Source: Haloterrigena salifodinae
GTDB taxonomy: Archaea > Halobacteriota > Halobacteria > Halobacteriales > Natrialbaceae
Length of the DNA: 51,335 bases
NCBI RefSeq assembly: GCF_003977755.1
Contig: NZ_RQWN01000008.1
Coordinates: forward strand, 1-51,335
Reading direction: 5' to 3'
This document shows, piece after piece, positions 4,305-43,322 of the stretch (its first letter is position 1; every line of letters begins with the position of its first letter). The notes below the pieces were generated by a model. It was not told where the DNA came from and searched no databases. It saw only the letters and a program-made list of their open reading frames with translations. The position numbers and the translations under genes were made by a program.

Positions 4305-5359
4305 CGCTGATCACTCCGGTTAGAATCTGCGGGGACACGTGCGCCCTCTTGCGTGTGCTTCCAATCAATCCGTGGCGTCTCGATCTCCTCGTTCGGGATG
4401 TGAGCGGCACTCGCCAGTTCGTCGACGGTCAAGATCATATCTCGATCGTCCCACGCCCTCGAGTGGACGTCGTCAATCAGCTTGCGGGCGTTCTTGACCG
4501 ACTCAGCGGTAAATCCCTGCTCCGTCGTCGCGTTGTAGTACTTGACGAACATCCCGGCGACGCCCCTCGCTCGAGCCTCTGCCTCGGTCTGGTTCGGAGA
4601 GGCGGCGAGCACGCGGATATTCGTGCTAAAGGCCTGTTGCCCGCGCTGTTGCTCGACGATCTTCGCCGACTGTTTCTCTTTGCTCGAGGCCTCGCGAACG
4701 CGGGGATTGATCCATCCCTTCACGTGTCCATCGCGAAGGCTCTCGGCGACGTCGTCAACGGACTCTCCACGCAATCCGCCGTCGGCCCAATTCGCCGGTT
4801 CCGGGCGGAACGCGACTTGCACAATGACGGTGGAGTCTTCCGTTGAGAGCATTTCGCTGGTGATCTCGCCGTAGGGATCGCGCTCGAAGCCCTCGCCGTC
4901 CCTGAAATGGTGAATCGGATAGTAGTAGTGTCGTGCAAGGCTCAGACGCGCCCCGGCGACGTAATTCTCGGCCTCGAGCGGTGGGAAGCCTTCTCCACCG
5001 GCCTCGAAAACGGCACTGTTGGCGTAGTTATTCCCGACGCGCCGGCGGAACTTGTCGGCCGCTCCCTCGGTCGCCGCGTGCATGAAGAACCGAATGCGCT
5101 CCCCGTCGAACCAGAGTTCGAACGAGTGATGGTCGCTTGTGTTCTTGCCGCGGAAGTTGGTCGTCACGTCGTGGACTGATTGTAAGAGTCCCGCAGCGTC
5201 GACCATGCCCTGATTCTCGGCGTGTGGCTGTATCTGCAGGAGAACGCCAGGCGTCTCGTCAGCGGTCTGTGTGTAGTCTCTAGAGAGCTTCGTCGAGGAG
5301 TAGTTCGATGGATTCGGATCGGAGGCATTGTCACCGAACAGCCGAGAAAGGAGCGACAT
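4301..5359 (-). CDS. separate N-terminal module of the coupling protein
   Basis: 352 residues, translationally coupled on both sides (TAATG with the VirB4 gene, ATGA with the motor gene). The order LLQIQP, then HHSFELWFDGERIRFF, then a segment ending in VFEAG recalls the N-terminal domain that precedes the motor in many bacterial TraG-like proteins (an immune-free alpha/beta region with the pattern H-x-FE...IRFY). Here it is a gene of its own directly before the motor gene. A later part (ERPEPANW, then an arginine- and glutamine-rich helix and AASPNQTEAEARARGVAG) matches the second half of such domains. It probably docks on the 919-residue ATPase. The assignment is inferred from pattern and order, not from a catalytic motif. 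Confidence 0.6.
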   Translation of the reverse strand: MSLLSRLFGDNASDPNPSNYSSTKLSRDYTQTADETPGVLLQIQPHAENQGMVDAAGLLQSVHDVTTNFRGKNTSDHHSFELWFDGERIRFFMHAATEGAADKFRRRVGNNYANSAVFEAGGEGFPPLEAENYVAGARLSLARHYYYPIHHFRDGEGFERDPYGEITSEMLSTEDSTVIVQVAFRPEPANWADGGLRGESVDDVAESLRDGHVKGWINPRVREASSKEKQSAKIVEQQRGQQAFSTNIRVLAASPNQTEAEARARGVAGMFVKYYNATTEQGFTAESVKNARKLIDDVHSRAWDDRDMILTVDELASAAHIPNEEIETPRIDWKHTQEGARVPADSNRSDQR

Positions 5360-8322: not shown

Positions 8323-8392
8323 AGCACAGATTTCCCTACGATATAGAGGAAGATATGTTTTTGGTTTCGTCGTAAGAAACGGAGAAAACGAA

Positions 8393-9733
8393 TTACTGGA
8401 AGCCGCGGTTCTGTTCAAACGACTCCCGAGATCGGTCGGTTGAAGAATAGCGGCCCGTGCTGTCCTGGTTCGCCGAGCCCATTTGGCCGATACTCCGCTT
8501 TCGGCTGACGCTCGAGGGCGACGACACTCCTGTTGAGTCGGTCGACGGTGGTGCTCCAGACGCAGAGGCAGTCGTTTTGGTGTTCGTGTCCGTATTCGCG
8601 CCGCGCCATTTCTCGACCTTGGCTTTGACCTCTCCGACGCGCTCGCTTGCTGCTCGCGCGTGCTTCTTGCCCTTGTGCCGGTTCATGGACGACATTCCGA
8701 GGCCGACACTCGCGGCTTGGTCGGCCGTCTTGAGCGCACTCCACGGAAGATAGACCGCGACGAAGCCAATCCCGACGATCGTCCCGAGCAGAGCGAAGAC
8801 AGGCCCTGCGAGTCCTGCCTCCCACGGGAGCAGATACAAGAGGCGTAAGAACATCGCTTGGACGATATTCACGCCGATGAGTAGGCCGAACAGCCAGATA
8901 TTGAAGTTTCCGAGGTTCGCGATTGTGCCGTCCCCGAAGGCTTTGCAGCCCCATGCGACCGGCCAGAACGCGACGCACATATGCAGCAAGACAAACTGCG
9001 CGACGATCGCGAACAGTCCGACGACGACGATCCCAATATATCCGTAGAGGAGGATTAGCGCCAGTATCCCGCCCGAGAGGAGTTTTCCGAGGCCGTTCGG
9101 CGTCGAAAGGAGGTGGTCCGCGGGCGGGGTAAACGCAGCCGATGCCTGCGCGCCGAAATGCAGGGCAAACGGCGCGACTTGCCACGTCAGGATAATCATC
9201 ACGAGTGCGACGCCGGCTTGTCGTAGCTTCTGGCGCCGCAGGTACGGATCGTTGTGCCGGAACGCCATCGTTGCGGCGCCGCCGACGAAGACGACGCCGA
9301 GGCCGGTCGTCCACAGCGTCATTTCGTAGATCCCCGGCCACCAGCCGTTTTGCGGGTTCGTCCATGAACTCGGATTGTCGTGGGATCCCGGCGCTGGGAC
9401 ATTTGAGATCGCCGAATTGAGATGGGTCAACCCAGCAGTCACGGCACCAGTTCCCATGTTTAGCGCCCACTCGAGCACTCCGTTCATCCACGAAAAGGGA
9501 TTGAACGTTCCGCCCAGTAGACCACCGTCGTCGTCGCTGCTGTTGCCTTCTGAGAGGTTCCCCGCGGATTCGTTTCCGAGCGTGTCGCCCGTGTTGCCAA
9601 ACGACTCGTTTGTATATCGCGAGTCGCCGAGTGTGACGTTTTCTGACTCGTTTTGTGCGACCGCACCCGAAGGTGCGATCGCCGACATCACGAGCAGGAT
9701 CAAAACGATACTTGCCGCTCGACGGTGTGACAT
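8393..9733 (-). CDS. polytopic VirB6/TrbL-like membrane protein with signal peptide
   Basis: About 446 residues. It begins with a signal peptide (RRAASIVLILLVMSAIAPSG, then AVAQ), followed by an Asn/Ser/Asp-rich extracellular stretch (residues 25-80) with several N-x-S/T sequons. Five or six hydrophobic helices follow between about 138 and 330, and then a cytoplasmic basic and Ser/Thr-rich tail. This matches the VirB6/TrbL/CagW-type channel component of type IV systems. It lies between the pilin-like gene and virB4, the usual position for that component. The start at 9733 gives the cleanest signal peptide. A large ORF on the same strand in another frame (8415-9785) is a shadow. Confidence 0.75.
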   Translation of the reverse strand: MSHRRAASIVLILLVMSAIAPSGAVAQNESENVTLGDSRYTNESFGNTGDTLGNESAGNLSEGNSSDDDGGLLGGTFNPFSWMNGVLEWALNMGTGAVTAGLTHLNSAISNVPAPGSHDNPSSWTNPQNGWWPGIYEMTLWTTGLGVVFVGGAATMAFRHNDPYLRRQKLRQAGVALVMIILTWQVAPFALHFGAQASAAFTPPADHLLSTPNGLGKLLSGGILALILLYGYIGIVVVGLFAIVAQFVLLHMCVAFWPVAWGCKAFGDGTIANLGNFNIWLFGLLIGVNIVQAMFLRLLYLLPWEAGLAGPVFALLGTIVGIGFVAVYLPWSALKTADQAASVGLGMSSMNRHKGKKHARAASERVGEVKAKVEKWRGANTDTNTKTTASASGAPPSTDSTGVSSPSSVSRKRSIGQMGSANQDSTGRYSSTDRSRESFEQNRGFQ

Positions 9734-13899: not shown

Positions 13900-14352
13900 T
13901 TAGTAAATGCTGTTTTTGGCATATTCCGGATATTCTGCATAGACATCCTCAATTAGATCGGAAAGCACGACATCATTATACTCCTCTTTGATTTCCTCTG
14001 CCATCTGAAGGATTGTCTCTGCTTCTTCTTTCCCTATTTGGTTTTCAACGAATTCTATTCCTTGATTTTGGATAGAATAATCATACTTCACATTATCATT
14101 ACCAATCTCTTCGACAGAGTCCTTTATCATCGATTTCTCAGACATGCTATCAAGTTCCGCATAGAGATCCTTGGAGAAGGGGCCATAATCATAAGGAATA
14201 AAATTAAAACTATCTGATAGGATAGGGTCCTTTCCTTGCTCCTTGAACCGCTGTTGCATCAAGAAGACCATCTTTTGCAATCGAGTTCGGCCTTCTATTG
14301 GCTCCTGCTCACAGGCATACATCAGCGCGAGCGGGAGCATCTTCTTATGCAT
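13900..14352 (-). CDS. YwgA-like protein of the TrmB pair
   Basis: 150 residues. GRTRLQKMVFLMQQRF followed by NFIPYDYGPFSKDLYAELD is the core of the YwgA/phage-associated family, related in outline to the Panacea (SocA) antitoxin domain. A predicted all-helical protein with an acidic tail. It overlaps the 3' end of the TrmB-like gene by eight bases and is co-transcribed with it. AT-richer codon use than the transfer operon marks this pair as a separate arrival. Possible roles are as an antitoxin-like or phage-response protein; neither is shown by a catalytic motif. Confidence 0.68.
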   Translation of the reverse strand: MHKKMLPLALMYACEQEPIEGRTRLQKMVFLMQQRFKEQGKDPILSDSFNFIPYDYGPFSKDLYAELDSMSEKSMIKDSVEEIGNDNVKYDYSIQNQGIEFVENQIGKEEAETILQMAEEIKEEYNDVVLSDLIEDVYAEYPEYAKNSIY

Positions 14353-15106
14353 TAGGAGTCACTTCCGTTGCGTTATCGCGAAGTTCTTTGAACTCCCTAA
14401 TAAAAACACTTGCCATCGTTCTGTCCGTGAAAATCATTCCTGTATCTGACTCCTCCATTTTCATTATCACTTTCTTTTTATCAACTACATAAAACGATTT
14501 GCGGGACATATTGTCGTGTTTGTGGACAGGAAGACCATGTTCTGAGAATTCTTCTATTTTGTTTTGCCTGGCAGTCCATAAAATAATGTTGAGATCAATA
14601 TCGCTACCTGCGTAGCGTTGTAGTTGCCGAAAATCGCTAATATCATACCACCGTGGGTCTGAGTCAACGATTAGAAGGCTTTCCTGAACGTTAGCCAACT
14701 GGTCTCTAATCTCGCCTACAGTTCCAACTTGACCACCTAATACCCAAGCGGGTGTCGATTGTTCTCCTCCGGAGTTTAATTCGTCCGCAGTAACCAGAGT
14801 CTCTTTAGTATTCTCTACAATTTCATTGAAATCATTTTGCTTTTCTTCGATAAGTCGGCCAGGATTTTTCGTTTTGTATATCGCGGGGTTTCGTTCTTGC
14901 TTGTCAATTACGCCCTCTTGATGGAGTTCATTAAGCACGTCATAGATCCGCCCGTGAGGAATTGACGTACGGACAACAATCTCCTGAGCTTCTAGTGGCC
15001 CCTCAGCGACCAGGACTCGATACGCTGTGGCATGATACTGGCCCCATCCCATTATCTCTTGGAGTGGTTCATCGACCTTTTCCAGTGACATCGGCCCTTG
15101 GCTCAT
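14345..15106 (-). CDS. TrmB-family transcriptional regulator
   Basis: 253 residues. The N-terminal winged helix (residues about 15-95) has the TrmB signature: ATAYRVLVAEGPLEAQEIVV, then IPHGRIYDVLNELHQEGVID and an alanine-poor linker helix. The C-terminal part (from about 120) is the phospholipase-D-like sensor half of TrmB-type regulators (SLLIVDSDPRWYDISDF, VVDKKKVIMKM, GMIFTDRTMASVFIREF). In most TrmB proteins this half binds a sugar. It is divergent from a 409-residue gene, and an imperfect palindrome lies between them. Confidence 0.82.
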   Translation of the reverse strand: MSQGPMSLEKVDEPLQEIMGWGQYHATAYRVLVAEGPLEAQEIVVRTSIPHGRIYDVLNELHQEGVIDKQERNPAIYKTKNPGRLIEEKQNDFNEIVENTKETLVTADELNSGGEQSTPAWVLGGQVGTVGEIRDQLANVQESLLIVDSDPRWYDISDFRQLQRYAGSDIDLNIILWTARQNKIEEFSEHGLPVHKHDNMSRKSFYVVDKKKVIMKMEESDTGMIFTDRTMASVFIREFKELRDNATEVTPNA

Positions 15107-21196: not shown

Positions 21197-22201
21197 ATGA
21201 TCGCGGACGCACGCCCGCTCCAGCCCGAGTTCGTGCCCGGCGACGTGAGACACAGGGACGGCGAAATCGACGCGCTCACCAGTACCCTCCGCCCCGTACT
21301 CGACGGCCAACACGCCGAACCGATTCTCCTCCACGGCCCCAGCGGCACCGGGAAGACCTGCATTGCCCGCCACGCCGTCGACCGCCTCCGCAGCGAGGTC
21401 GTCGACCTCCACACCCAGTACGTCAACTGCTGGCAGGACTATACCCGCTTCAAGACGCTCTACCGCCTACTGGAGGGAATCGACCGCGCCATCGATGTCC
21501 ACCGCCAGTCGACGCCACGCGATGAGCTGGTCGATCGGCTGCGCGACGGGCTCGACGACCCCTACGTCGCCATCCTCGACGAGGTCGACCAGTTGACCGA
21601 GAAGGAGGTGCTGTACGACCTCCACCGTGTGAGGGGCCTCTCCGTCGTCCTCATCGCCAACGCAGAGGAGGAACTGTTCTCGGTGCTGGAGGGACGGGTC
21701 GCTAGTCGGTTCAAGACCGCGACCCGCATCCACTTCGACCGCTACGGCACCCGCGAGCTGGTCGGCATCCTCGAGGATCGCGTCCGGTGGGGTCTCCACG
21801 AGGACGCCATTACTGACGACCAGCTCCGATGGATTGCCGACGCAGCCGGCGGGGACGCACGTATCGCCATCGCCACTCTCCGTGCCGCCGCGCAAGAGGC
21901 CGACCGCCGAGGTCTCGACCGACTGACCACCGACGCGATCGAGGCGGCGGCCCCGAAGGCAAAGGCGGAAATTCGGCGGAAGAACCTCGAGAAGCTCACC
22001 GACGATCAGCGCACCCTCTACGACATCATCGAGGAACAGGAGGAGATTGCGCCGGACGCACTGTACGAGGCCTATCGAGAGGAGGTCGCCGAAGCGAAGT
22101 CGCGGCGGATGGTGCGTAACTACCTCCGGAAGATGCGCCGCTACAACCTCGTCACTGCCGAAGGCGAGGGGCGAGCCCGGACGTACCAACTCGTCTCCTG
22201 A
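21197..22201 (+). CDS. Orc1/Cdc6-family AAA+ ATPase
   Basis: 334 residues. Walker A HGPSGTGKT at about 46-54, Walker B VAILDEVDQL, sensor 1 VVLIANAEEE, sensor 2 region GGDARIAIATLRAAAQEA, and a C-terminal winged helix (TLYDIIEEQEEIAPDALYEA onward). All domains of archaeal Orc1/Cdc6 are present, but the protein is short for the family (usually near 400). I see no convincing origin-recognition boxes within a few hundred bases, so whether it fires an origin on this plasmid or is an accessory paralog is open. Confidence 0.85.
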   Translation: MIADARPLQPEFVPGDVRHRDGEIDALTSTLRPVLDGQHAEPILLHGPSGTGKTCIARHAVDRLRSEVVDLHTQYVNCWQDYTRFKTLYRLLEGIDRAIDVHRQSTPRDELVDRLRDGLDDPYVAILDEVDQLTEKEVLYDLHRVRGLSVVLIANAEEELFSVLEGRVASRFKTATRIHFDRYGTRELVGILEDRVRWGLHEDAITDDQLRWIADAAGGDARIAIATLRAAAQEADRRGLDRLTTDAIEAAAPKAKAEIRRKNLEKLTDDQRTLYDIIEEQEEIAPDALYEAYREEVAEAKSRRMVRNYLRKMRRYNLVTAEGEGRARTYQLVS

Positions 22202-27024: not shown

Positions 27025-28028
27025 GGACGCTCTTGCGTAGGAGATTGTTGATACTGCTGAGCGAAAGCTGTGGAGTCGAAGAGGACAAGGGCACCGCGTT
27101 AGCGGTGCCCGACACGAATGATTCCGATCGATGTGTTTGGATCGGAATCGGTTGCAGCGGGCCTGTTGCAGCAGGTTCGCTGACGTGACGGTGTTTCCTG
27201 TCCCCGTTACCGTTCTGACTGAACGGTCAGAAACGGCAGCTACAGAGAATTTCAGCGATATCTCTGTAAGAATTGCGACCACACGTTCAACGACAAGACT
27301 GGCACGATCTTCGCTCATTCGAAGATTGCACTCCGTCGGTGGTTGTTCTCAATCTACGCGTTTCTCCGGTTTAACACGAGTCTGCGCTAACTCCAGTGAG
27401 AAATCGGGTAACACACAAGTCGATCAACCGGCGCATCGAGCGCTTCGTCAGAGAGCTTGATGCGCCTTCACTCGAACTCGTTGGGCCAGTCGAAATCGAC
27501 CAAGTGTACGTCTCTGCCGGGAAGAAAGGCCGCGAACGCGACTGGGAGTCGCGCTCACGTGGTCTGTCCACGCACGGGCGTGGTTCGTATAGCGGTGACA
27601 AGCCACCCGTCTTCATCATCGCCGATCGTGGCACCGGACAGCGGTACGTGATCCCAGCGAAAGCCGCAGACGAATCGACGATTCGACTCCTGCTGGCGGT
27701 CTGCCAGCAGGAGTCGAACCGTCTATACTGACGGCTTTCGAGCGTACGAACCGCTCGAAGAAGACAACGAATTCGACCGGGAATACGTCGTTCACGGTGA
27801 CGGCGAATACGCCGATGACAAGGTCCACGTCAACACCTGCGAGAGCCACGCGTCGCAGGTGTGACGCTGGCTCTCGCCCCATCAAGGAATCTCTAAGGAC
27901 GAGTTGACGCAGTCTCTCAGAGCGTTCCAACTACGCCGAGAGTTGTATCGAAAACCGGGACGAGACGCACTCAAACACGCTGTCCAAGCTACACTCTGAA
28001 ATCAACAATCTGCTACGGATGAGCGTCC
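27025..28028 (+). mobile_element. IS1595-type insertion sequence, decayed copy 1
   Basis: About 1.0 kb. Terminal inverted repeats: left GGACGCTCTTGCGTAGGAGA (27025-27044); the right end read inward is GGACGCTCATCCGTAGCAGA (28028-28009). Both continue as TTGTTGAT. Its single gene is broken. No matching target duplication was found in the eight flanking bases. A second copy in the same orientation begins near 33970. Confidence 0.75.
27118..27999 (+). pseudogene. IS1595-type transposase, broken (copy 1)
   Basis: Conceptual start MIPIDVFGSESVAAGLLQQV. Then comes a zinc-ribbon region, the FNDKTGTIFAHSKIALRRWL stretch and the ISXO2-like catalytic domain (LVGPVEIDQVYVSAGKKG, GSYSGDKPPVFIIADRG). Stops at about 27180 (TGA at a Trp codon) and within SD*TVRNG, and a frameshift near 27715, inactivate it. 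The readable middle section is 27396-27731. Copy 2 differs in its lesions. Confidence 0.75.
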
Positions 28029-30340
28029 TAATATTCAGAGAGGAGTTGCTTAGGCGCAATCGAGTGGAGTAATACCTGCCCCATCCCTCTCATTGAGGAC
28101 GCAACCAGTTCTTCTGGCGAGGCAAACTCTAAGAGACTCTCTTCATCGTATTGTTCATTGAATTCGATATACATAGAAACACTATATAATGCTACAGCAA
28201 TAACATATCGTTCTTGAACGAATTCTTTCCCAGATTCTCGTAAATTGCGGTTTTGTAAGAAACGTCGTACAGGCGCAGAATGCATATTAACGTAAATATC
28301 CATATCACTCACACTGTCCCCTGCGATGGCTAACTCAACCACATCATGTTCATCGAATCCATGTTTATCCCAGTCATTTTCTTCTACCCTATTGATATTT
28401 GGGAGACTTAGCCCTGCAGATCCTTGAGGTTCAGTCTTCTTTTTATTGTTAGTTGAGGTTGTTTCCGCTTCGTCTGCAAACTCTATCTGGACGCGCTGAG
28501 ATAAAGGAGAATCACCAGGTCTTGTTACATTAAAAATTCCTGTTAGGACATCACCAGGTACATTTCCTTCTGGAGCAGTCAACCCGATAGTCAATATCCC
28601 TTTATTCAAATTTGACCATTGCACAACATCTGTCGTCGGATTGACTCTCAATTCTCCCTTTCCGTCCTCTGTTAGATAATCATTTGGTGCATTCAGATAG
28701 AATCTAACCTGTCGCGTTCTGTTTACTGGTAATTCTAATTCATATGTCCCATCTTCATCGGAGTTATAGAATTCATGGGCTCCGTCAGGATCATATGTTT
28801 CAATAATATTGAAAGTATCTGGGATTTTCGGGGGGCTATACGATGAGAGATCATCAGATGGCACATCAGTCGTTGACTTATCACCGCTTTCGAAGAAGCG
28901 TTGAAGATCGGGGTCTTCCTCAAGGATACTTTGAAGGGACTCATCAAGAATTTCATCAGACTCCTCATTCGCTAGCTTCTGTCGCCGACGGTCTTCCTCA
29001 GCAATTAACCAGTCATCATTCTCAAGAGCATCTTTTACACCTTTACGGAGGGTATTGCCAATAGCAGAGTTCTTTATTCTATCTCTAGTTGGTTGGAACA
29101 AATCAACCATATCGGTCCCTGCAAGGTCAGAAAAGTCAATAATAATGAGTGTATCCTTTCCAACTCGTGGCTTATTACAGCGATTCGTAATAAACGTCGC
29201 TCCTTCATTCCCATGAGTTTGGCCATTCACCGTGTAGAGGACTGCCATATCTCTATGGTCAGGTCCACCGACGAATCGATTCTTGTTTCGAACTGTGATT
29301 TCGTTTTCTTCTAATAACTGATCTATCTCATCATCATCCTTGAATGTGAATACCTCGATACTCCGCACATCTAATCTTTCATTCTCAAAATTATACTGGA
29401 TAGAATATTCTTCTTCTAGTAAGTCATCATACTTCTCTATTCGGCTTCGGAGACCACCAGTCTCTCTCTCTGAAAATCCATCACTGTATCGAGTGTCATG
29501 CAGTTTAAGTGGTACTGGTGGATCAACTAAATATCGCTCAAGCCGCTTTTGGAATCGCTTATCACCAGCAATCGTTGTCTTACCTACATTGAGTTGATAA
29601 TCATAGACCTTCACTAATGTACCATGTGATCTACTATCGATAGTTCCCTCAAACGTCGGGATGTCCCCATCGATAGTCAAGTACTCGTACCGCCCTTTCT
29701 TACGGTTCTGCTTAATTAGCGACCAGCTCCACTTGCCGGTCTCTGAAGCAGCAGCAGAACAGATAAATTTGAAGCTCTTCCCTCCACAAAATTGCAACAC
29801 ACCAGTTGATCCCATACCATATTGCCCCTGCAGAAACGGATAATCTTGCTTGTATTTCCCAGGTTCTAGCAGTCCTAAGAAAGTGTCCTCAAATCGGGAT
29901 GGTGGCTGTCCACATCCATTATCTACTACCGTAAAATTGACTAAATCCTTATTATTTGGTTTGAATCCATCTGCCCGTAGTTCCACATGTTCCTCATCTG
30001 GCTTTAAGAGGTCTCCCCGAGCATCTTTTTGATTATCAAAGTTAGGCAGGTCTTGCGAATGTGGGTCTGGATCTGTTGTTCCTACATGTTCATGGAACCT
30101 TTTCATTAGAACTGCATCGTACGAGTTTATTATTACTTCTACTAATGCGGGAACAGGTGCACCAGCTTGATTCTCTACCACTCCATAATTATTCTCCATT
30201 CGGCCTAACGCCTTCCAATCCTCTTCACTAAAAAAATCAGATTCCAGAATCTCTTCTACTTCTTCGGGGGATTGCGCATCTTTCAACTCGATCGCGGCTT
30301 CCTGTGCAGAGCCCACTCGCTCTTCCCTAGATTGCGCCAT
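28028..30340 (-). CDS. GHKL ATPase of a defence-like locus
   Basis: About 770 residues from the MAQSREERVG start, with a TATA box 21-28 bases upstream. The GHKL (gyrase-Hsp90-histidine kinase-MutL) ATP fold is clear: N-box EVIINSYDA at about 68-76, DNGCG at 140-144, and GQYGMGSTG at about 172-180. A long transducer-like part follows, and the C-terminal 200 residues contain Ig-like strands. It is not a kinase because no histidine phosphoacceptor or receiver is present. MORC-like and Hsp90-like ATPases occur in restriction and defence cassettes. Its TAG stop is formed at the edge of the IS1595-type element, so the native C-terminus may be lost. Confidence 0.75.
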   Translation of the reverse strand: MAQSREERVGSAQEAAIELKDAQSPEEVEEILESDFFSEEDWKALGRMENNYGVVENQAGAPVPALVEVIINSYDAVLMKRFHEHVGTTDPDPHSQDLPNFDNQKDARGDLLKPDEEHVELRADGFKPNNKDLVNFTVVDNGCGQPPSRFEDTFLGLLEPGKYKQDYPFLQGQYGMGSTGVLQFCGGKSFKFICSAAASETGKWSWSLIKQNRKKGRYEYLTIDGDIPTFEGTIDSRSHGTLVKVYDYQLNVGKTTIAGDKRFQKRLERYLVDPPVPLKLHDTRYSDGFSERETGGLRSRIEKYDDLLEEEYSIQYNFENERLDVRSIEVFTFKDDDEIDQLLEENEITVRNKNRFVGGPDHRDMAVLYTVNGQTHGNEGATFITNRCNKPRVGKDTLIIIDFSDLAGTDMVDLFQPTRDRIKNSAIGNTLRKGVKDALENDDWLIAEEDRRRQKLANEESDEILDESLQSILEEDPDLQRFFESGDKSTTDVPSDDLSSYSPPKIPDTFNIIETYDPDGAHEFYNSDEDGTYELELPVNRTRQVRFYLNAPNDYLTEDGKGELRVNPTTDVVQWSNLNKGILTIGLTAPEGNVPGDVLTGIFNVTRPGDSPLSQRVQIEFADEAETTSTNNKKKTEPQGSAGLSLPNINRVEENDWDKHGFDEHDVVELAIAGDSVSDMDIYVNMHSAPVRRFLQNRNLRESGKEFVQERYVIAVALYSVSMYIEFNEQYDEESLLEFASPEELVASSMRGMGQVLLHSIAPKQLLSEY

Positions 30341-30360
30341 AACTGCTATTTTCACCGACA

Positions 30361-30368
30361 GTATATAA
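30361..30368 (-). promoter_or_regulatory. TATA box for the GHKL gene
   Basis: TTATATAC on the minus strand lies about 24 bases ahead of ATG 30340, fitting a leaderless archaeal transcript and supporting that start. It is in the 41-base gap after the winged-helix gene. Confidence 0.55.
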
Positions 30369-30381
30369 CACCCATGATAAA

Positions 30382-30612
30382 TTACTTTTCAGAATCTACT
30401 TCCCATAAGAATGTATTTCCAACGGGGGAACAAGTTATTTTACCATCCTTTTCTAGTTCTGAAAGTTTAGAGTGAGCTGTCGTCCTGTGGCAATCTAACT
30501 CGTCAGCCACTTCGATTGTCGCCATGCGCGTACCTCTGAGTAGGTCAATAATCTCGTCGTCAGAGTAAACCTCATCATACTGTCCAGTATTCTCGTCTCG
30601 TCTGCGTGGCAC
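30382..30612 (-). CDS. small winged-helix protein, candidate controller of the defence locus
   Basis: 76 residues. DDEIIDLLRGTRMATIEVAD, then LDCHRTTAHSKLSELEKDGK and a wing ending in FLWEVDSEK: a classic compact haloarchaeal winged helix. It is divergent from the methyltransferase gene across an inverted repeat and just upstream of the GHKL gene. The position corresponds to that of a restriction-modification controller protein, though it is not the helix-turn-helix fold of bacterial C proteins. Confidence 0.72.
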   Translation of the reverse strand: MPRRRDENTGQYDEVYSDDEIIDLLRGTRMATIEVADELDCHRTTAHSKLSELEKDGKITCSPVGNTFLWEVDSEK

Positions 30613-30685
30613 TATTACCTGAGCGTACTCTCCACGGGGCGTTAAATCCCTTGACAGATCAGCTCAAAACCCAAACATTTTGTAC

Positions 30686-30708
30686 CCATACTACGTTGCG
30701 TAGGATGG
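30686..30708. promoter_or_regulatory. inverted repeat in the winged-helix/methyltransferase divergent region
   Basis: CCATACTACG (30686-30695) and CGTAGGATGG (30699-30708) form an inverted repeat with nine of ten pairs matching and a three-base spacer. It lies between the divergent controller-like gene and the methyltransferase gene, a natural operator position. Confidence 0.55.
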
Positions 30709-30772
30709 TAGCAGATACGGGAATATTGTTGGTGTACTGACGCTGGAAAAACGAAGAACCAAGAACTAAGCC

Positions 30773-32032
30773 ATGTCACTTACAACAAGCGAGCCAGACC
30801 GTGATAGACTGATGAGCGAGGATACTGCCGTTACCAAACTGTTGAGTTCTGAGGCGGAATACAATACAGAACTCGGAGCAGCCTATCAAGGAGATAGTCG
30901 AGAGCTTCTGGAGGAACTGCCCGATAATAGTATTGATCTAATTGTTACTTCTCCTCCGTTTGCGCTTCAGCACCAGAAAGAGTACGGGAACGAGGACCAG
31001 CAAGGATATAATGACTGGTTCATGTCCTTCATCCCTGAAATCCGTCGAGTGCTTCAACCACATGGAAGCTTCGTGGTTGAGATCGGGGGTGCTTTCAAAC
31101 GAGGGTACCCTGAGCGTTCCACGTATCAGTTCGAGCTTTTGAATCGGCTCGTGGATGAAGACGAGGGACAGATGCGCCTTGCTCAGGACTTCTATTGGTA
31201 TAACCCTGCAAAATTACCGAGTCCTATCGAGTGGGTCAATGTTCGTAAAATCCGTGTGACAGATGCCGTTACTCATATCTGGTGGCTTACTCCCGAAATC
31301 AACAAAGACTCGGCTGTCGAGGAAGGAGAGCATCCTCACCCCGAAGTGAGCAACCAAAGGGTTCTCCAGGAGTACTCTGATTCACAAAAAGAATTAATCG
31401 AGACAGGGGAGTTCAACGACGGAGAGCGAGGCTCTGGCTGGAATATTGATTCAGAGTCCTTTGCGAACGATAACGATGGCTCCATCCCAGATAACTTCAT
31501 CGAGGGTCACGAGGCTGGACCGATCCTTGATCGTCTGGATGAAGTGAGTGCAGAGGAATTCATTTCGTGGATTACTGATGGAGAGAGCATCGAAGATCTG
31601 TCCGCAGGGGAGCTATGCAGGATTCTTGGGATGGGAGACACTACACCTGATAACGTAATCGAGGCATCCAACACAGCCAGCAATACCCATTACCTCCAGA
31701 TGTGCCGAGAGTTTGACGTGGACTCTCATCCTGCCCGATTCCCTCGGCAAATTCCAGAGTTCTTCATTGACTTCCTTACTCCCAATCCGCCATACGATGA
31801 TTGGGACCGAAGTTATCTGGATAAGCCAATCGTCCTAGACATCTTCGGCGGGAGCAACCTCACAGGACTCACTGCCGAAAAGAAGGGCCGTCACTGGCTC
31901 GCATTTGAGCGCGAGCAAAAATACATTGACTCGTCTCAATTCCGCTTCTTGACGGAGGAGGAAATCCGTAAGAGCATGAGCGAAGACCAAAGCGACCTTG
32001 GTGACTTCCCCGCAATTAGTAAGAATGACTAA
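30773..32032 (+). CDS. DNA methyltransferase, probable N4-cytosine type
   Basis: 419 residues. Motif IV TSPPF at 59-63 and FGG (VLDIFGGSNLTG) at about 358-360 are in the order IV...I of beta-class N4-cytosine and N6-adenine enzymes; S-P-P-F favours N4-cytosine. A later conserved box SHPARFPRQIPEFFIDFL (near 315-335) is typical of this branch. It should methylate a short target and protect the host from the nuclease encoded nearby. The start at 30773 is preferred; an internal Met (MSEDTAV) is also possible. Its stop overlaps the next small gene by eight bases. Confidence 0.85.
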   Translation: MSLTTSEPDRDRLMSEDTAVTKLLSSEAEYNTELGAAYQGDSRELLEELPDNSIDLIVTSPPFALQHQKEYGNEDQQGYNDWFMSFIPEIRRVLQPHGSFVVEIGGAFKRGYPERSTYQFELLNRLVDEDEGQMRLAQDFYWYNPAKLPSPIEWVNVRKIRVTDAVTHIWWLTPEINKDSAVEEGEHPHPEVSNQRVLQEYSDSQKELIETGEFNDGERGSGWNIDSESFANDNDGSIPDNFIEGHEAGPILDRLDEVSAEEFISWITDGESIEDLSAGELCRILGMGDTTPDNVIEASNTASNTHYLQMCREFDVDSHPARFPRQIPEFFIDFLTPNPPYDDWDRSYLDKPIVLDIFGGSNLTGLTAEKKGRHWLAFEREQKYIDSSQFRFLTEEEIRKSMSEDQSDLGDFPAISKND

Positions 32033-32282
32033 ACAACTACCATCAGAGCTCGAAGGGGCAGTGGAGAAGTGCTTCGAGACCTGGGACCTCGCTGTAGATG
32101 GGGAAATCACCGCTGAGAAAGAAGGTAACGGATACGAAGCATCAGTTCCCTTCTCTGGCGAGCTTCTAGTCGAGGAAGCACTAAGAGACGGTCACAGAGA
32201 TCTCCTCTATAACAAAGAGGCTGAAATCCTATTCAAGGGCGTCCGAGATGGAAAGCTGCTCTTGACAATTAAAGAGAACTGA
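32025..32282 (+). CDS. small protein between methyltransferase and nuclease
   Basis: 85 residues from ATG 32025, overlapping the methyltransferase stop. Charged helix first (LEGAVEKCFETWDLAVDG), then strand pairs (EILFKGVRDGKLLLTIKEN). No known domain; a single cysteine. Tight coupling to the methyltransferase suggests a partner or inhibitor role in the locus. Its end converges on the nuclease gene with eight bases between. Confidence 0.62.
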   Translation: MTKQLPSELEGAVEKCFETWDLAVDGEITAEKEGNGYEASVPFSGELLVEEALRDGHRDLLYNKEAEILFKGVRDGKLLLTIKEN

Positions 32283-32290
32283 GCTAACTG

Positions 32291-33826
32291 CTATTCCTCG
32301 TCGTCATCGTCGTTGTTGAAATCATCGAGCGAGCCTTGTGATTCGTCGTCTTCTTCCTCAAGTTCGGCAAGTTCATCCTCAAACTTCTCAAGTGCCTGTT
32401 CCTCTCGTTCGACTAGCTCACCTTCCTCATCCGATTCGACTTCTTGCTGGCTGAGTTTTTTGATATTGTGGATTCGACGGGCTTCGCTTCTGAGGACCGT
32501 TAGAAGGTGGTCTGCTTCCTCGTCCAGCCGTTCGATATCCTCACCAGTCAGGAACATAATGGAGATGTTCTCTTGGCGCATGACACGGTTTGCGTACTGC
32601 CGAGCATCAGAGGACACACCACCTCGTGCAATCATTAATATAGTGTTAGTTTGGAGAATCCGAGCAATCCCTACTTCACGAGCGACGTACTTCGATTCCA
32701 ACTGCTTCTTGATGTTCTTGCACTGGATTTGCCAACGATTGAACGTCGTTCTGGTTTCGTCCATCACCACGTCTACTTCACTCCCGCCCGTCTTGCGACC
32801 ACGGACACGCCAGCCCACAAAGTCCAGACCAAGCAGCCTCCCTATCTTGACCGATAAGGTTTCCAGGGCCACACCTTTCTCATATGTCCCATCCGCGTCG
32901 AGATCTTCCATGACCTCTTCGAATGATAGTCGAATCACGTGGCGTGGGACCCCTGTCCTCTCGGAGAGGTCGTCGAGGACTGGTTTGAGGATTTCAGAAT
33001 CGAACTTATCAGTTGTTTCTATGAGGTTTGGTTTCCCAGAGACGTGTTCCCACTCAATATAGTCCGCTTCTTGAATTGGGTCGAGCGTCCGCCGACTAAT
33101 CCCACTTTGCTTAATATCGACGCCATACGCCTCTTCAGCAATTTGTTTCACTGTGCGACTCTTCACCTGTCCACTGGGAGCAATCAATGTGAGTGCTCTC
33201 AGGAAGGCCTGCTGATGTTCTTCCAAACCATCCAGTTCAACGATATCCTCAGAGTCTACACCGATAAGTTCCTCAATCCGAACACGGTCGATATCGTAGT
33301 GATGGGTTCCTCTGTTTACAACACCAGATTTGGACATCCAAGCTCTCATCTGAGACCAGTGGTTTGAAGTCTCATCGACGTGGAAATCATACTGACGACG
33401 GAATTCCTCCTTGACGTTCGCGTTGACCGTTCTTTTCCCCTGTGCTTCCAAATCCTCGACGATCTCGATACCTTTGAGACCATGTAGATTACGGAGGATA
33501 TGCTGCGTGAACCTATCATAGAGAGCATCAGGATCATCACGAAGTTTATACAACTCATCCCCTAGATCAGTAAAGTAGAAGTCGTTGTCTGTGATTCCAT
33601 ATCCTCGTTCCTTTAGTCCGAGACGGACGTTCTTCGACCTCGTGGTATCAGCATGGTCTGGGAAGAACTTCTTCCGCATTACCTCGTCAAATTCGTCTTC
33701 CTGACCTTCGTACTCCTTCGCTTTCTCGAGAATATATGCGAGTTCAGGAGGTTCCCCTTCATCCGTGTAAAGTTGTTCTGGAGAAAAGGCATCCCCAAAA
33801 GGTAGGTCCGTGTCGTGTCGAGCCAT
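32291..33826 (-). CDS. Mrr-like PD-(D/E)xK nuclease of the defence locus
   Basis: 511 residues. The N-terminal 300 residues are helical and winged-helix-like (GLKERGYGITDNDFYFTDLG; TVKQIAEEAYGV). The catalytic region is a variant PD-(D/E)xK fold of the Mrr kind: GSEVDVV with Asp352, then QIQCKN with Q368-x-K370, followed by a helix VAREVGIARILQT and the strand TILMIARGGVSSDARQYANR. An acidic coiled tail follows. Mrr-type nucleases cleave DNA according to methylation. The pairing with a methyltransferase and GHKL ATPase suggests a modification-based restriction system. Confidence 0.78.
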   Translation of the reverse strand: MARHDTDLPFGDAFSPEQLYTDEGEPPELAYILEKAKEYEGQEDEFDEVMRKKFFPDHADTTRSKNVRLGLKERGYGITDNDFYFTDLGDELYKLRDDPDALYDRFTQHILRNLHGLKGIEIVEDLEAQGKRTVNANVKEEFRRQYDFHVDETSNHWSQMRAWMSKSGVVNRGTHHYDIDRVRIEELIGVDSEDIVELDGLEEHQQAFLRALTLIAPSGQVKSRTVKQIAEEAYGVDIKQSGISRRTLDPIQEADYIEWEHVSGKPNLIETTDKFDSEILKPVLDDLSERTGVPRHVIRLSFEEVMEDLDADGTYEKGVALETLSVKIGRLLGLDFVGWRVRGRKTGGSEVDVVMDETRTTFNRWQIQCKNIKKQLESKYVAREVGIARILQTNTILMIARGGVSSDARQYANRVMRQENISIMFLTGEDIERLDEEADHLLTVLRSEARRIHNIKKLSQQEVESDEEGELVEREEQALEKFEDELAELEEEDDESQGSLDDFNNDDDDEE

Positions 33827-33969
33827 TTTATATTTCGAGCTGCTGCTAGATCATCGTATTTACTTATAGCTTTTGATGGGTCAGCGGGCCACTAAAGATG
33901 AGTTAAAAGCCAAGAGCTTAGCAGATAGTACTATCAGAGGGGGAAGCCAGAAGATGTAGTTTAAGTACT

Positions 33970-34765
33970 ACGCTCATCCGTAGGAGATTGTTGATACTGC
34001 TGAGCGGGAACTGTGAAGTCGAAGAGGACAAGGGCACCGCATCAGCGGTGCCCGACACGGATGATTCCGCTGGATGTGTTTGGGTCGGAATCGGTCGCAG
34101 CGGACCTGTTAGTGCAGGTCCACTAGCGCGACGGTGTGACTTATCCTCGTTGTCGTTCTGACCGGACGGTCAGAAACGGCAGCTACAGAGAGTTTCAACA
34201 CTATCTCTATAAGCATTGTGACCGCACGTTCAACGACAAGACTGGCACGATCTTCGCTCATTCGAAGATTGCACTCCGGCGGTGATTGTTCTCGATCTAC
34301 GTGTTTCTCCGGTTTAACACGAGTCTCCAGCAGTTACAGTGCGAAATTGAAGTCACTCACAAAACGGTTCAGCGGCGCATCGAGCGCTTCGCCAGAGCAC
34401 TCGATTCGCCTTCTCTCGATCTCGTTGGCCCAGTCGAAATTGACGAAGTGTACGTCTTTTCCGAGAAGAAAGGCTGCGAGCGCGACCAAGAGTCGCGCTC
34501 GCGTGGCCTGTCTAGGCGTGGGCGTGGTTCGTATAGCGGCGACAAGCCACCCATCTTCATCATCACTGATCGAGGAACCGGACAGCGGTACGTAATCCCG
34601 GCGAAAGCCGCCGACGAATCGACAATTCGACTCCTGCTGACCGACCGCAAAGAGGAGTCGTTCACGGACTATACCGACGGCTTTCGGGCGTACGAACCAC
34701 TCGAAGAGGACGACGCATTCGACCGGGAATACGTCGGCCACGATGACGGCGAATACGCCGACGAT
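33970..34765 (+). mobile_element. IS1595-type insertion sequence, truncated copy 2
   Basis: The left end (ACGCTCATCCGTAGGAGATT, from 33970) and about 800 bases match copy 1 closely and in the same orientation. Similarity ends near 34765, so the right end is missing. With copy 1 it brackets the GHKL-methyltransferase-nuclease block. Confidence 0.7.
34061..34765 (+). pseudogene. IS1595-type transposase, broken and truncated (copy 2)
   Basis: Conceptual start MIPLDVFGSESVAADLLVQV. Stops replace Trp codons at two places (TAG in VH*RDG near 34133; TGA in LRR*LFS near 34284), and the C-terminus is lost after about 34765. The zinc region TYPRCRSDRTVRN is kept. The catalytic part PVEIDEVYVFSEKKG... 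to ...FRAYEPLEEDDAFDREY reads openly and runs on into unrelated sequence. Confidence 0.72.
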
Positions 34766-38228: not shown

Positions 38229-39065
38229 ATGCTTACGTACACAACGTACTCTGAAGCCGGCGGCGTCGGAAAGACGACGATCGCCGCGAGCTTAGCCGAC
38301 GAGCACGCACGCGCCGGCCAGGACGTCCTGATGGTTGACCTCGACCCGCAATACGGATCGCTCACCCACCTTCTCGGCGTCGATGCACCGCGAAACGACG
38401 GTAGCGCCGACAACCTCACTCGGCACTTGATCGACCGGCCGAAGGGAGACTTTGAGGAACTCATCCTCGAGACCCGGTATGACTTCGATCTCGTTCCGAG
38501 CCACAACATGATGGAACGGCTAGGTGACCTGCTCGCTCGTGCGGAGCAGATGGCGCAGGATCTCGACGAGGAGTTCGACCCAAACGACCAGCTGCGTCAG
38601 GTTCTCCTTGAGGCGGGGATCCCGAAGCAGTATGACACGCTAGTCGTCGATCCGCCGGCGACTGCGGGCCCACATCTCTACAACGCGGTGAACGCGACGC
38701 GGTCGCTGGTCATCCCGATCGAGCCGACAGGGAAAGGGATGCAAAGCGTCCTCGGCCTTGAGGAACTCGTTGACGGCCTCGAGGAGCAGATCGAGGCCGA
38801 GGTCGGCGTCCTGGCAGCGGTCCCGAACGGCGTCGGTCGGACGTCAGACCAGCAGGAGTACCTCGAGGAGATCCGCGACCGTGGTTATCCCGCGCCGGTC
38901 GCGCTCCGGCGCCGGGCGTCGCTGTTCGAGGGCTGCTGGAAGGAGCAGTGCACGCCTCGCTACTACGTTGCTCACCACCGTGACCGGAAGCGCGATCACG
39001 AGATGGAAACGCTCGAGAAACTCTCTCAGCTGGCCGAGTCGATAACCGAGGTGGCTGGGGCATGA
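38229..39065 (+). CDS. parA: ParA/Soj-family partition ATPase
   Basis: 278 residues. The P-loop EAGGVGKTT is at 9-17. It has the two-glycine deviant form but lacks the signature lysine ahead of it (Ala instead), as in several haloarchaeal ParA proteins. Walker A' VDLDPQYGSLTHLLG, Walker B TLVVDPPATAG and the conserved PIEPTGKGM follow. A TATA-like ACTATAAC lies about 26 bases upstream of the ATG. The gene overlaps the following small gene (ATGA), giving a classic partition operon for plasmid segregation. Confidence 0.85.
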   Translation: MLTYTTYSEAGGVGKTTIAASLADEHARAGQDVLMVDLDPQYGSLTHLLGVDAPRNDGSADNLTRHLIDRPKGDFEELILETRYDFDLVPSHNMMERLGDLLARAEQMAQDLDEEFDPNDQLRQVLLEAGIPKQYDTLVVDPPATAGPHLYNAVNATRSLVIPIEPTGKGMQSVLGLEELVDGLEEQIEAEVGVLAAVPNGVGRTSDQQEYLEEIRDRGYPAPVALRRRASLFEGCWKEQCTPRYYVAHHRDRKRDHEMETLEKLSQLAESITEVAGA

Positions 39066-40934: not shown

Positions 40935-43322
40935 ATGACAGACCTTCTGTACCACGCTATCAAGGCACACGAACCCAAACATTCCCAACTTACCGCCTAC
41001 AACCGTCTGGAGTTCCTGCTACCAGACAGCACCGAATCGTACGACATCGATGGGAGTGAAATCATAGAAAAGATAAAAGAACTCACTGAGGAAACGTCAG
41101 GTCCTCTCAAAATCCCCCTCCATGAACCCAATAGCGCGGAATTATCTGGGGAGCACGTCGAGTTGGAGGAAGCTCTGATGGGTGACTTCCTCGTTTACAG
41201 GAACCCGTCGCGAGGAAAGGGAACGTCGCAAGGAAAAGCCCGCGAATCGGTACGAACCATCTACAAGACACGGATTGGACAACGTCTTCGCTTCTGGTCA
41301 GACAACTACGAACCGCCATCCACGCCGAGTTATGCCATCGAACCTTCCACGATCATTGACGAAGATAGTCCTCCTCAAGCGACCCCAGTAAGTCCTCACT
41401 CCAAAGAGAAGGAAAACAAGTGGTTTAGAGAACTGGAAGACTTCGTGAACACACTTGAAAGTCAAAGCCGTGAAGAGAATAAGGAGGCATACCGGAGACA
41501 GCAGTTCTATCAATACGCAGATAAACACGGCGGAATACCAGAAGCCGTCTCGCTAGGCCGTCACGACCACCCAGATATCGGTGAAGTCTACGAGTTCGTC
41601 ATCCCAGCTGAAGACGAAGACGATCCTGAGCCTATTGACCCTGTTGATGAGTTCGACCTATATCCTGAGATGGAGGTGTTGATTGATCCACTGGGTGAAT
41701 CCCAGCAGGGTAGTGAATTGGCCTCGGCGATACGAGCCAAATTCGAATACTGGGACACAGATGACCGAATGATTGCATTCTCGACATTTGATACTGGCTC
41801 TAAGAGTACAGACTATGTTCTAACCGATGATTCAGAAGTCTTTCAGATCGTAGGCCTACTCAATCGAGTCCCATTTAACCGTGAGAGAGAAGCTATCAAG
41901 ACCAGTCAACAGGATTCTAGACGAAACAACATTCTGCTAGGGAAAACTACTCTGGACTTCACTTCCAAGTATTCCCTCAAAGTCCAAAACCTGACAGTCT
42001 GTGACGAGGACAGCGACGGTGAGACGACTCGTGAGCGATTCTATGACCCAGGAAGTGATGATCCTGTTGTTGGTGGTGTGAAACTCAATGAATTCCAAGC
42101 TGAAGCTGCTGAACGTGCTCTCCGAGCAAAGCACGTCTACTGTATCCACGGTCCACCGGGGACAGGGAAAACTCGTACACTGAATGCGATTACGCGACAA
42201 GTCGTCGCCGAAGGTGGAAGAGTTCTCGTCTGCGCTCACAGTAATTCAGCCGTCGATAATCTTCTCGTTGGGGATTCCACTCTCGAGAGCATAGAAACTG
42301 GGAGCCTTCACGAACTGGCACAAGATCCAACATGGAACCTTGATGTTTCAATCGCCCGGGCCGGGTCTGGATGTGAGAACAAAGTTGTGGACAAGCACTA
42401 TGTGGGGGAAAAGCCAGGGAATGCGAATATCGTTGCCACAACTGCAAGCGCCGCTGCAGACTTCGATAAAGACGAGTTCGATATCGCGATCATTGACGAA
42501 GCAACTCAGGCAAATATTCCATCGTCATTGATCCCATACGTCTGTTCAGAGAAGATAGTCCTCGCAGGCGATCACAAGCAACTTCCCCCATACAAAAGTA
42601 CCGAGGCTGAAGAACGCCCGATCCGGGTATCGCTGTTCGAGCATTTCCTCGCTATCTACGATTCGGGCGTTCGAACAATGCTCCGGCGTCAATACCGGAT
42701 GAATGAAGAAATCGCTGAGTTCCCCTCTACGACTTTCTACGGTGGGGAATTGCAGACTGATGAAATAAATAGAATGTGGACAGTACCTGATGAACCACCT
42801 CTGATGGGCATCAACGTGAACGGAGAAGAAGAAGATGCAGGAGTAAGCAAAAAGAACTCTCGGGAAGCTAAGGTTGTAGCAAAGCGTGTGAAAGATCTCC
42901 GTGAAAAGGGAGTTCCAATGGGATGTATTGGAATCATCACAACTTACCGAGGTCAAATTGACACTATTCAAGATATCCTTGACGAGTATATTGAGGAGTC
43001 CACTCGCTTCGTAACCATCGATACTATAGACTCGTTCCAAGGAAGTGAGAGAGAAGCTATCATTGTATCATTTGTCCGGTCAAATGATACGGGAGAAAGC
43101 GGATTCCTAACGTTTCCTGAAGAGGGGCCTCGTCGATTGAACGTAGCGTTGACCCGTGCGAAGAAACACCTCACGCTAGTAGGTGATTTTGAGACCCTTG
43201 GAAAAACCCCGCACTACAAAAACGCGGATAATGATTGTAGTGATGTCTACCTTGCACTTGCAGAGTCACTCCGTAACCGTGAGATGATGGTCGAGCCATC
43301 GAAGCAAGTGAAGTCAGATTGA
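40935..43322 (+). CDS. UPF1-like superfamily 1 helicase
   Basis: 795 residues. N-terminal 400 residues are unclassified, with an acidic OB-like part. The helicase core has GPPGTGKT at 406-413, DEATQ at 521-525, the GDHKQLPP and RRQYRM motifs, TIDSFQGSERE (motif V) and ALTRAKKHL (motif VI). This order matches UPF1/Dna2-like SF1B helicases that unwind RNA or DNA 5'-to-3'. A TRAM-like gene precedes it, so an RNA-directed role is plausible, for example RNA decay or antiviral interference. Such helicases also occur in defence islands. No nuclease domain is attached. Confidence 0.82.
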   Translation: MTDLLYHAIKAHEPKHSQLTAYNRLEFLLPDSTESYDIDGSEIIEKIKELTEETSGPLKIPLHEPNSAELSGEHVELEEALMGDFLVYRNPSRGKGTSQGKARESVRTIYKTRIGQRLRFWSDNYEPPSTPSYAIEPSTIIDEDSPPQATPVSPHSKEKENKWFRELEDFVNTLESQSREENKEAYRRQQFYQYADKHGGIPEAVSLGRHDHPDIGEVYEFVIPAEDEDDPEPIDPVDEFDLYPEMEVLIDPLGESQQGSELASAIRAKFEYWDTDDRMIAFSTFDTGSKSTDYVLTDDSEVFQIVGLLNRVPFNREREAIKTSQQDSRRNNILLGKTTLDFTSKYSLKVQNLTVCDEDSDGETTRERFYDPGSDDPVVGGVKLNEFQAEAAERALRAKHVYCIHGPPGTGKTRTLNAITRQVVAEGGRVLVCAHSNSAVDNLLVGDSTLESIETGSLHELAQDPTWNLDVSIARAGSGCENKVVDKHYVGEKPGNANIVATTASAAADFDKDEFDIAIIDEATQANIPSSLIPYVCSEKIVLAGDHKQLPPYKSTEAEERPIRVSLFEHFLAIYDSGVRTMLRRQYRMNEEIAEFPSTTFYGGELQTDEINRMWTVPDEPPLMGINVNGEEEDAGVSKKNSREAKVVAKRVKDLREKGVPMGCIGIITTYRGQIDTIQDILDEYIEESTRFVTIDTIDSFQGSEREAIIVSFVRSNDTGESGFLTFPEEGPRRLNVALTRAKKHLTLVGDFETLGKTPHYKNADNDCSDVYLALAESLRNREMMVEPSKQVKSD

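Follow-up and report, generated by a model that had tools for sequence, protein, structure and literature searches.

The window analysed here is the entire contig C8 (51,335 bases) of the 4.96 Mb Haloterrigena salifodinae genome (G000). It carries five uninterrupted open reading frames in the order GHKL ATPase (-), controller (-), methyltransferase (+), small ORF (+) and nuclease (-), which are listed in Table 1 with the flanking insertion sequences. The methyltransferase gene (M) and the controller gene (C) are divergent, with an intergenic distance of 160 bp. The GHKL gene follows C on the same strand after a gap of 26 bp, while the small gene begins 8 bp before the end of M and is separated by 8 bp from the end of the nuclease gene (R). 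The GC content of this region is 42-50%, compared with 55.7% for the window. The original prediction of five intact and tightly packed genes was confirmed, and the gene identities and defence character that it had assigned were upheld. Its further claim that the five genes form one system was not supported, since in all other genomes sampled C-M-R or M-R lacks the GHKL gene; the outcome it had named as speaking against it, a methyltransferase always linked to a different nuclease and to no GHKL gene, is close to what those genomes contain. The five genes are real and intact, yet they are not one conserved five-gene system.

Table 1. Positions of the genes, the putative operator and the flanking insertion sequences in the window
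Feature	Position	Strand	Remarks
IS1595 (ISHma4-like), full length, frameshifted	27025..28028	+	left flank of cassette
GHKL (Hsp90/MORC-like) ATPase, 775 aa	28028..30355	-	add-on module; weak HATPase_c_3 sequence match
Controller-like winged-helix protein (C), 76 aa	30382..30612	-	C homologues divergent from M in relatives
Conserved inverted repeat CCATACTACgttgcGTAGGATGG, 23 bp, putative operator	30686..30708	.	between C and M
DNA (cytosine-N4) methyltransferase (M), M.PvuII family, 419 aa	30773..32032	+	PF01555, 1.8e-28; 1boo; MTase_II
Small ORF, 85 aa	32025..32282	+	between convergent M and R
Restriction endonuclease (R), 511 aa	32291..33826	-	PF04471, 2.9e-06; EVD..QCK
IS1595 (ISHma4-like), 3' end lost	33968..34765 (right end approximate)	+	right flank, orientation as left copy

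All five genes are bracketed by two IS1595 copies that are 84-88% identical in matched blocks. As had been noted before, both copies are decayed and lie in the same orientation, the left one being frameshifted and the right one lacking its 3' end. The left copy ends at the stop codon of the GHKL gene, and the C-terminus of the GHKL protein is not truncated, as it aligns through to the end of its closest relative. An intact composite transposon is excluded at present, since the right copy has no 3' end, though both copies share one orientation. Genes for a TraG/AAA_10-type ATPase (5359-8418), a ParA-like protein (38229-39065) and an AAA-type ATPase (21197-22201), the last two named from a reading of the sequence only, suggest that the contig is plasmid-like. 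Elsewhere in the window, a SocA/Panacea-domain gene overlaps a TrmB-type regulator gene in a low-GC stretch (13900-15106), and an AAA_11/AAA_12 superfamily 1 helicase is encoded at 40935-43322 with a small gene upstream.

The controller, methyltransferase and nuclease

The methyltransferase contains the TSPPF motif and an N6_N4_Mtase domain (Pfam PF01555, E value 1.8e-28). It matched M.PvuII (1boo) by phmmer with an E value of 4.2e-81 over two stretches and with an additional insert at about 244-291, and the PADLOC model MTase_II (PDLC03323) at 2.3e-97. This whole-protein homology together with the TSPPF motif places it in the M.PvuII-type m4C methyltransferase family, in agreement with its earlier identification as a TSPPF enzyme of the m4C type. 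By this kinship its product is probably m4C, while the target site cannot be read from kinship to M.PvuII (CAGCTG).

The nuclease had been described as Mrr-like with D...QxK residues, and this was upheld by a Pfam hit to the Mrr_cat domain (PF04471, E value 2.9e-06, 27.8 bits against a cut-off of 21) together with the residues EVD...QCK, which assign it to the Mrr catalytic domain family. These residues are kept in 10 of 12 nuclease homologues. In the remaining two genomes (G127 and G213) QCK is replaced by HCS, and both loci carry two or three PvuII-like methyltransferases; homologues that have lost QxK among such methyltransferases are found at L091:9030-10553 and L092:9292-10815. The predicted structure (pLDDT 78.2) comprises a recognition-like part at the N-terminus, a winged helix (195-280) and a nuclease at the C-terminus, and gave matches to AspBHI, AF1548, BpuJI and FokI-type proteins with Z scores of 8-9. 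The N-terminal part resembles the BpuJI recognition domain in the model, at a modest Z of 9.0 (rmsd 3.9, 168 residues aligned), and the C-terminal nuclease resembles AspBHI and AF1548, also at a modest Z of about 9. A likeness of the whole fold to BspD6I and FokI was rejected, as an rmsd near 14-18 reflects a resemblance of domain order only. A PDB sequence search with the nuclease returned meaningless matches only, and no relatives were found in viral contigs.

The controller itself gives weak HTH matches, and its homologue at L082 passes the HTH_20 cut-off. Homologues 55-63% identical to it lie divergently upstream of M in four other haloarchaea (G041, G106, G161 and G240), and a fifth, 57% identical, occurs in G130, where the repeat is also present. 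An alignment of the C-M intergenic regions revealed the conserved sequence CCATACTACgttgcGTAGGATGG, a pattern that occurs once in the window against 0 expected. Each of the six loci that have a clear C homologue contains this 23-bp inverted repeat, which is absent from the other fetched loci (174 were fetched, several of them overlapping copies of the same six places). The locus thus has a small predicted DNA-binding regulator adjoining M together with a conserved putative operator, as in restriction-modification (R-M) systems controlled by a C protein, and there is good evidence that C and the palindrome are a dedicated regulator-operator pair, in which C would bind the repeat. A relative of the controller with 31% identity (L021:11445-11711) is encoded about 2 kb past the GHKL gene on a Haladaptatus pallidirubidus plasmid, with no methylase nearby.

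The nuclease was found in 13 of 292 haloarchaeal genomes, and in nearly all of them the same type of methyltransferase lies beside it. The M-R pair stands side by side here and in at least nine other haloarchaeal genomes, the conserved pairing expected of type II R-M systems, and the two homologues are also neighbours on a bacterial plasmid (Roseivivax). The full C-M-R set occurs without a GHKL gene in the four haloarchaea listed above, and the M-R pair does so in several others. In the relatives, M and R are usually convergent, and their stop codons overlap directly where the window has the small ORF, which most likely starts at the ATG at 32025, inside the end of M. The 85-aa product of this ORF has no relatives in the 292 genomes, plasmids or viral contigs sampled, and a conserved role for it in the system is therefore unsupported. 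At one further locus (L087:4653-6950, in G241) a different GHKL protein (HATPase_c_3, 8e-13) is encoded about 2.5 kb from a nuclease-methylase pair.

The core of the locus is thus C, M and R, that is, by sequence, a winged-helix controller, an M.PvuII-family methyltransferase and a nuclease of the winged-helix/Mrr type. In PvuII, too, the regulator gene is divergent from M with a palindrome between them, and the m4C methylase family is the same. The present locus differs from PvuII-type systems in its R, a 511-aa winged-helix/Mrr-type protein convergent with M, in its C, a winged-helix protein that need not be a relative of C.PvuII, and in the added GHKL and small genes. The earlier description of the locus as not canonical held for DISARM and BREX: no DrmA match was found anywhere in G000, although other genomes in the same search matched, and the only match to BREX PglZ is below the cut-off and on another contig. 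It mostly failed for type II, because the trio C, M and R resembles a controlled type II-like R-M system and M is close to M.PvuII. A core of this kind is known; the specific combination of C, M and R with a putative operator is new as far as the open-licence literature was searched.

The GHKL ATPase and its neighbours

Members of the GHKL family were collected by an alignment-based search of genome contigs, a single-protein query having found none. The N-box (E73, N77, D80) and the glycine boxes (D145, G147, G149; G177, G182) are intact and invariant in 49 aligned relatives, which bears out the proposal of a GHKL ATPase with an intact N-box and both glycine boxes. At the sequence level the HATPase_c_3 match is weak, a PDB sequence search gave zero matches, and none of the PADLOC and NCBIfam models matches the family convincingly. 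The structural model (pLDDT 82.6) contains an ATPase and S5 middle part (about 52-463), a beta-rich region (about 515-627) and a C-terminal alpha/beta domain (about 653-775), and over residues of about 52-461 it resembles Hsc82 (Hsp90; Z 22.0) and Morc3 (Z 19.9). No members were found in phage records, and the viral contigs held one distant relative.

R-M operons with MORC-like GHKL ATPases, a minority of them without a helicase, were described in 2008 (Iyer et al. 2008, PMC2292703), and the association of GHKL proteins with R-M in general is therefore not new. Shared with those operons is a GHKL plus S5 ATPase adjoining methylases and endonucleases, in some cases with no helicase (PMC2292703). 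Assignment to the paraMORC1-5 families requires GHKL plus S5 with a family-specific extension or motif (ExxxH, RE fold, TIR or HxH). The MORC-specific S5 motif GhXhhpXXRhl occurs in none of the 49 members, which places the protein outside the MORC family; a conserved ExxxH is likewise absent from these members, Pfam recognised no TIR or nuclease domain, and the C-terminal half has no nuclease motif. The protein may nonetheless belong to paraMORC1 or paraMORC5. A second precedent is VcSduA (GHKL-Shedu) of Vibrio cholerae, in which a GHKL ATPase is fused to a PD-(D/E)XK nuclease and is needed for defence, with both active sites essential (PMC12137116). There the two activities act in phage defence, and here both types are present by sequence; VcSduA differs in being a single protein with a DUF4263 nuclease and no methylase, while at the present locus the genes are separate (PMC12137116).

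Relatives of the GHKL protein are found in varied company. The closest, in Halorubrum distributum (62-64% identical), lies beside a TSPPY methylase, a GmrSD-type gene and an MvaI/BcnI-type endonuclease, and this set recurs in G152 with a more distant GHKL protein; the MvaI_BcnI REase is within the GHKL cluster in G111 and G152. N6_N4 methylases adjoin the GHKL gene in G111, G149, G221:C4, G140 (where the GHKL gene is split into two frames) and G152, these genomes having only 2-5 matches each, and two 5mC methylases adjoin it in G091. A longer form adjoins DrmA in six genomes (G034, G092, G102, G212, G221:C6 and G255). Halarchaeum sp. CBA1220 has a long GHKL protein within DISARM, together with DrmA, DrmB, DrmC and a 5mC methylase matching the DrmMII models, and in a haloarchaeal DISARM locus at L023:5236-17421 the long GHKL gene stands between a 5mC methylase and drmA. 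The full-length homologues in this position are about 30% identical to the GHKL protein of the window, which itself has no DrmA beside it. No methylase is near the GHKL gene at four Haladaptatus loci, so members of the family may act alone or in trans.

In bacteria, SspB, SspC or SspD was present in 61 of the 80 best GHKL loci, and the homologues beside these phosphorothioation genes are about 26% identical to the protein studied here. There are no SspBCD genes beside the GHKL gene of the window, and the other proteins of the cassette match no Ssp model. The extra genes at the SspBCD-GHKL loci vary (DndB-like, or GmrSD_N plus a kinase or SIR2), and across L102-L173 (e.g. L141:8959-11409, L119, L142) the neighbouring pairs of effector-like genes change. 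The described Ssp effector set SspFGH has features (Walker A, FtsK-like) other than those of GHKL, and the open-licence phosphorothioation, BREX and SspFGH papers searched make no mention of such an ATPase, which is possibly an overlooked Ssp component. In a tree of the family the haloarchaeal members fall on one side, with differing partner types inside; the Ssp label was also the default for rows whose fetched flank lacks SspBCD, and the Ssp count is accordingly approximate. The recurrent neighbours support the view that the GHKL family is functionally tied to DNA modification. Within the open-licence literature searched, it is new that a single GHKL family spans m4C/m6A and 5mC methylase loci, DISARM and Ssp.

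A probable restriction-modification system with an exchangeable ATPase

Among 391 haloarchaeal genomes, 17 contain the nuclease family, two of them as a weak or partial match, 16 contain the GHKL family, and only G000 has both. About 0.7 such genomes would be expected by chance, so co-occurrence in one genome proves nothing, and it is the adjacency of the genes that needs explaining. The GC3 value of the GHKL gene is 0.36, as against 0.53 for M and 0.52 for R. What follows the controller differs among relatives. G106 and G161 have a GmrSD-type gene there, and G041 and G240 lack one; at L083:5517-7259 and L084:12341-14086 a gene of this type occupies the place that GHKL has in the window. The best reading is that the GHKL gene is an exchangeable add-on behind the controller of a known kind of C-M-R restriction. 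We interpret the locus, with a probability of about 0.7, as a complete C-controlled type II-like R-M system, made up of C, an m4C methyltransferase and an Mrr-type endonuclease, into which a GHKL ATPase gene has been inserted after the controller as an exchangeable part.

According to this interpretation, M would methylate the host copies of a short site, presumably to m4C as in its kin M.PvuII, and thereby spare them from R, which may use its own DNA-reading region to find and cut unmethylated copies on incoming DNA. By binding the 23-bp palindrome, C would set the order in which M and the genes on the C side are made. Co-expression with C is probable for the GHKL protein, whose gene begins 26 bp further along the same strand. 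From its Hsp90/MORC-like fold, the GHKL protein is predicted to form a dimeric clamp that closes on DNA or partner proteins when driven by ATP; most likely the clamp would act on unmarked DNA, or on the nuclease after recognition, and would reinforce or gate the response. The idea that it gates the nuclease is made plausible by VcSduA, a fused GHKL-nuclease that needs both activities for defence (PMC12137116), and by this analogy we regard it as conceivable, if unlikely. That the GHKL protein works with the present R-M system in some way appears to us an evenly balanced question, and the partnership stays inferred because a single locus pairs GHKL with this C-M-R.

Alternatively, GHKL might be a defence gene in its own right that has ended up next to C-M-R, with which it does not cooperate, on a contig that is plasmid-like and rich in IS elements. 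Its absence from this C-M-R elsewhere in the 391 genomes, its differing GC3 and the four Haladaptatus loci lacking a nearby methylase are consistent with that possibility, which we consider rather doubtful given the position of the gene directly behind C on the same strand and the recurrence of the family beside DNA-modifying enzymes, unrelated R-M systems included. At the other extreme, the strong form of the original idea makes the five genes one integrated system that cannot cleave without GHKL. Tight packing, the GHKL-nuclease precedent of VcSduA (PMC12137116) and the IS copies that enclose all five genes would fit such a system, and the persistence of C-M-R without GHKL in four other genomes, and of M-R in several more, together with a small gene that has no relative in any genome sampled, makes it improbable.

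A different reading of R starts from the resemblance of its catalytic domain to Mrr and to the modification-dependent enzymes AspBHI and MspJI, and would make it a type IV modification-dependent nuclease, with M as an unrelated neighbour. This appears very improbable: homologues of M and R lie side by side in nearly all loci examined, the Roseivivax plasmid among them, no modification-reading domain was recognised in R, and an enzyme that cuts methylated DNA would damage its own host when encoded next to a methylase, unless the two differ in specificity.

Returning to the reading of a C-M-R system with an added ATPase, we propose tentatively, and at less than even odds, that proteins of the GHKL family serve as a general ATPase independent of the mark, able to join m4C/m6A R-M systems, 5mC loci, DISARM and ssDNA phosphorothioation, so that different marks of "self" would lead to the same clamp-type response against unmarked DNA; the window would then represent its capture by C-M-R. 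If GHKL serves chemically different marks, the common step must come after the mark has been read. R-M, DISARM and Ssp would in that case have one testable mechanism in common, a missing component would be named for many SspBCD loci that is unmodelled in current defence databases, and a prokaryotic counterpart would become available for studying MORC/Hsp90-type clamps on unmodified DNA.
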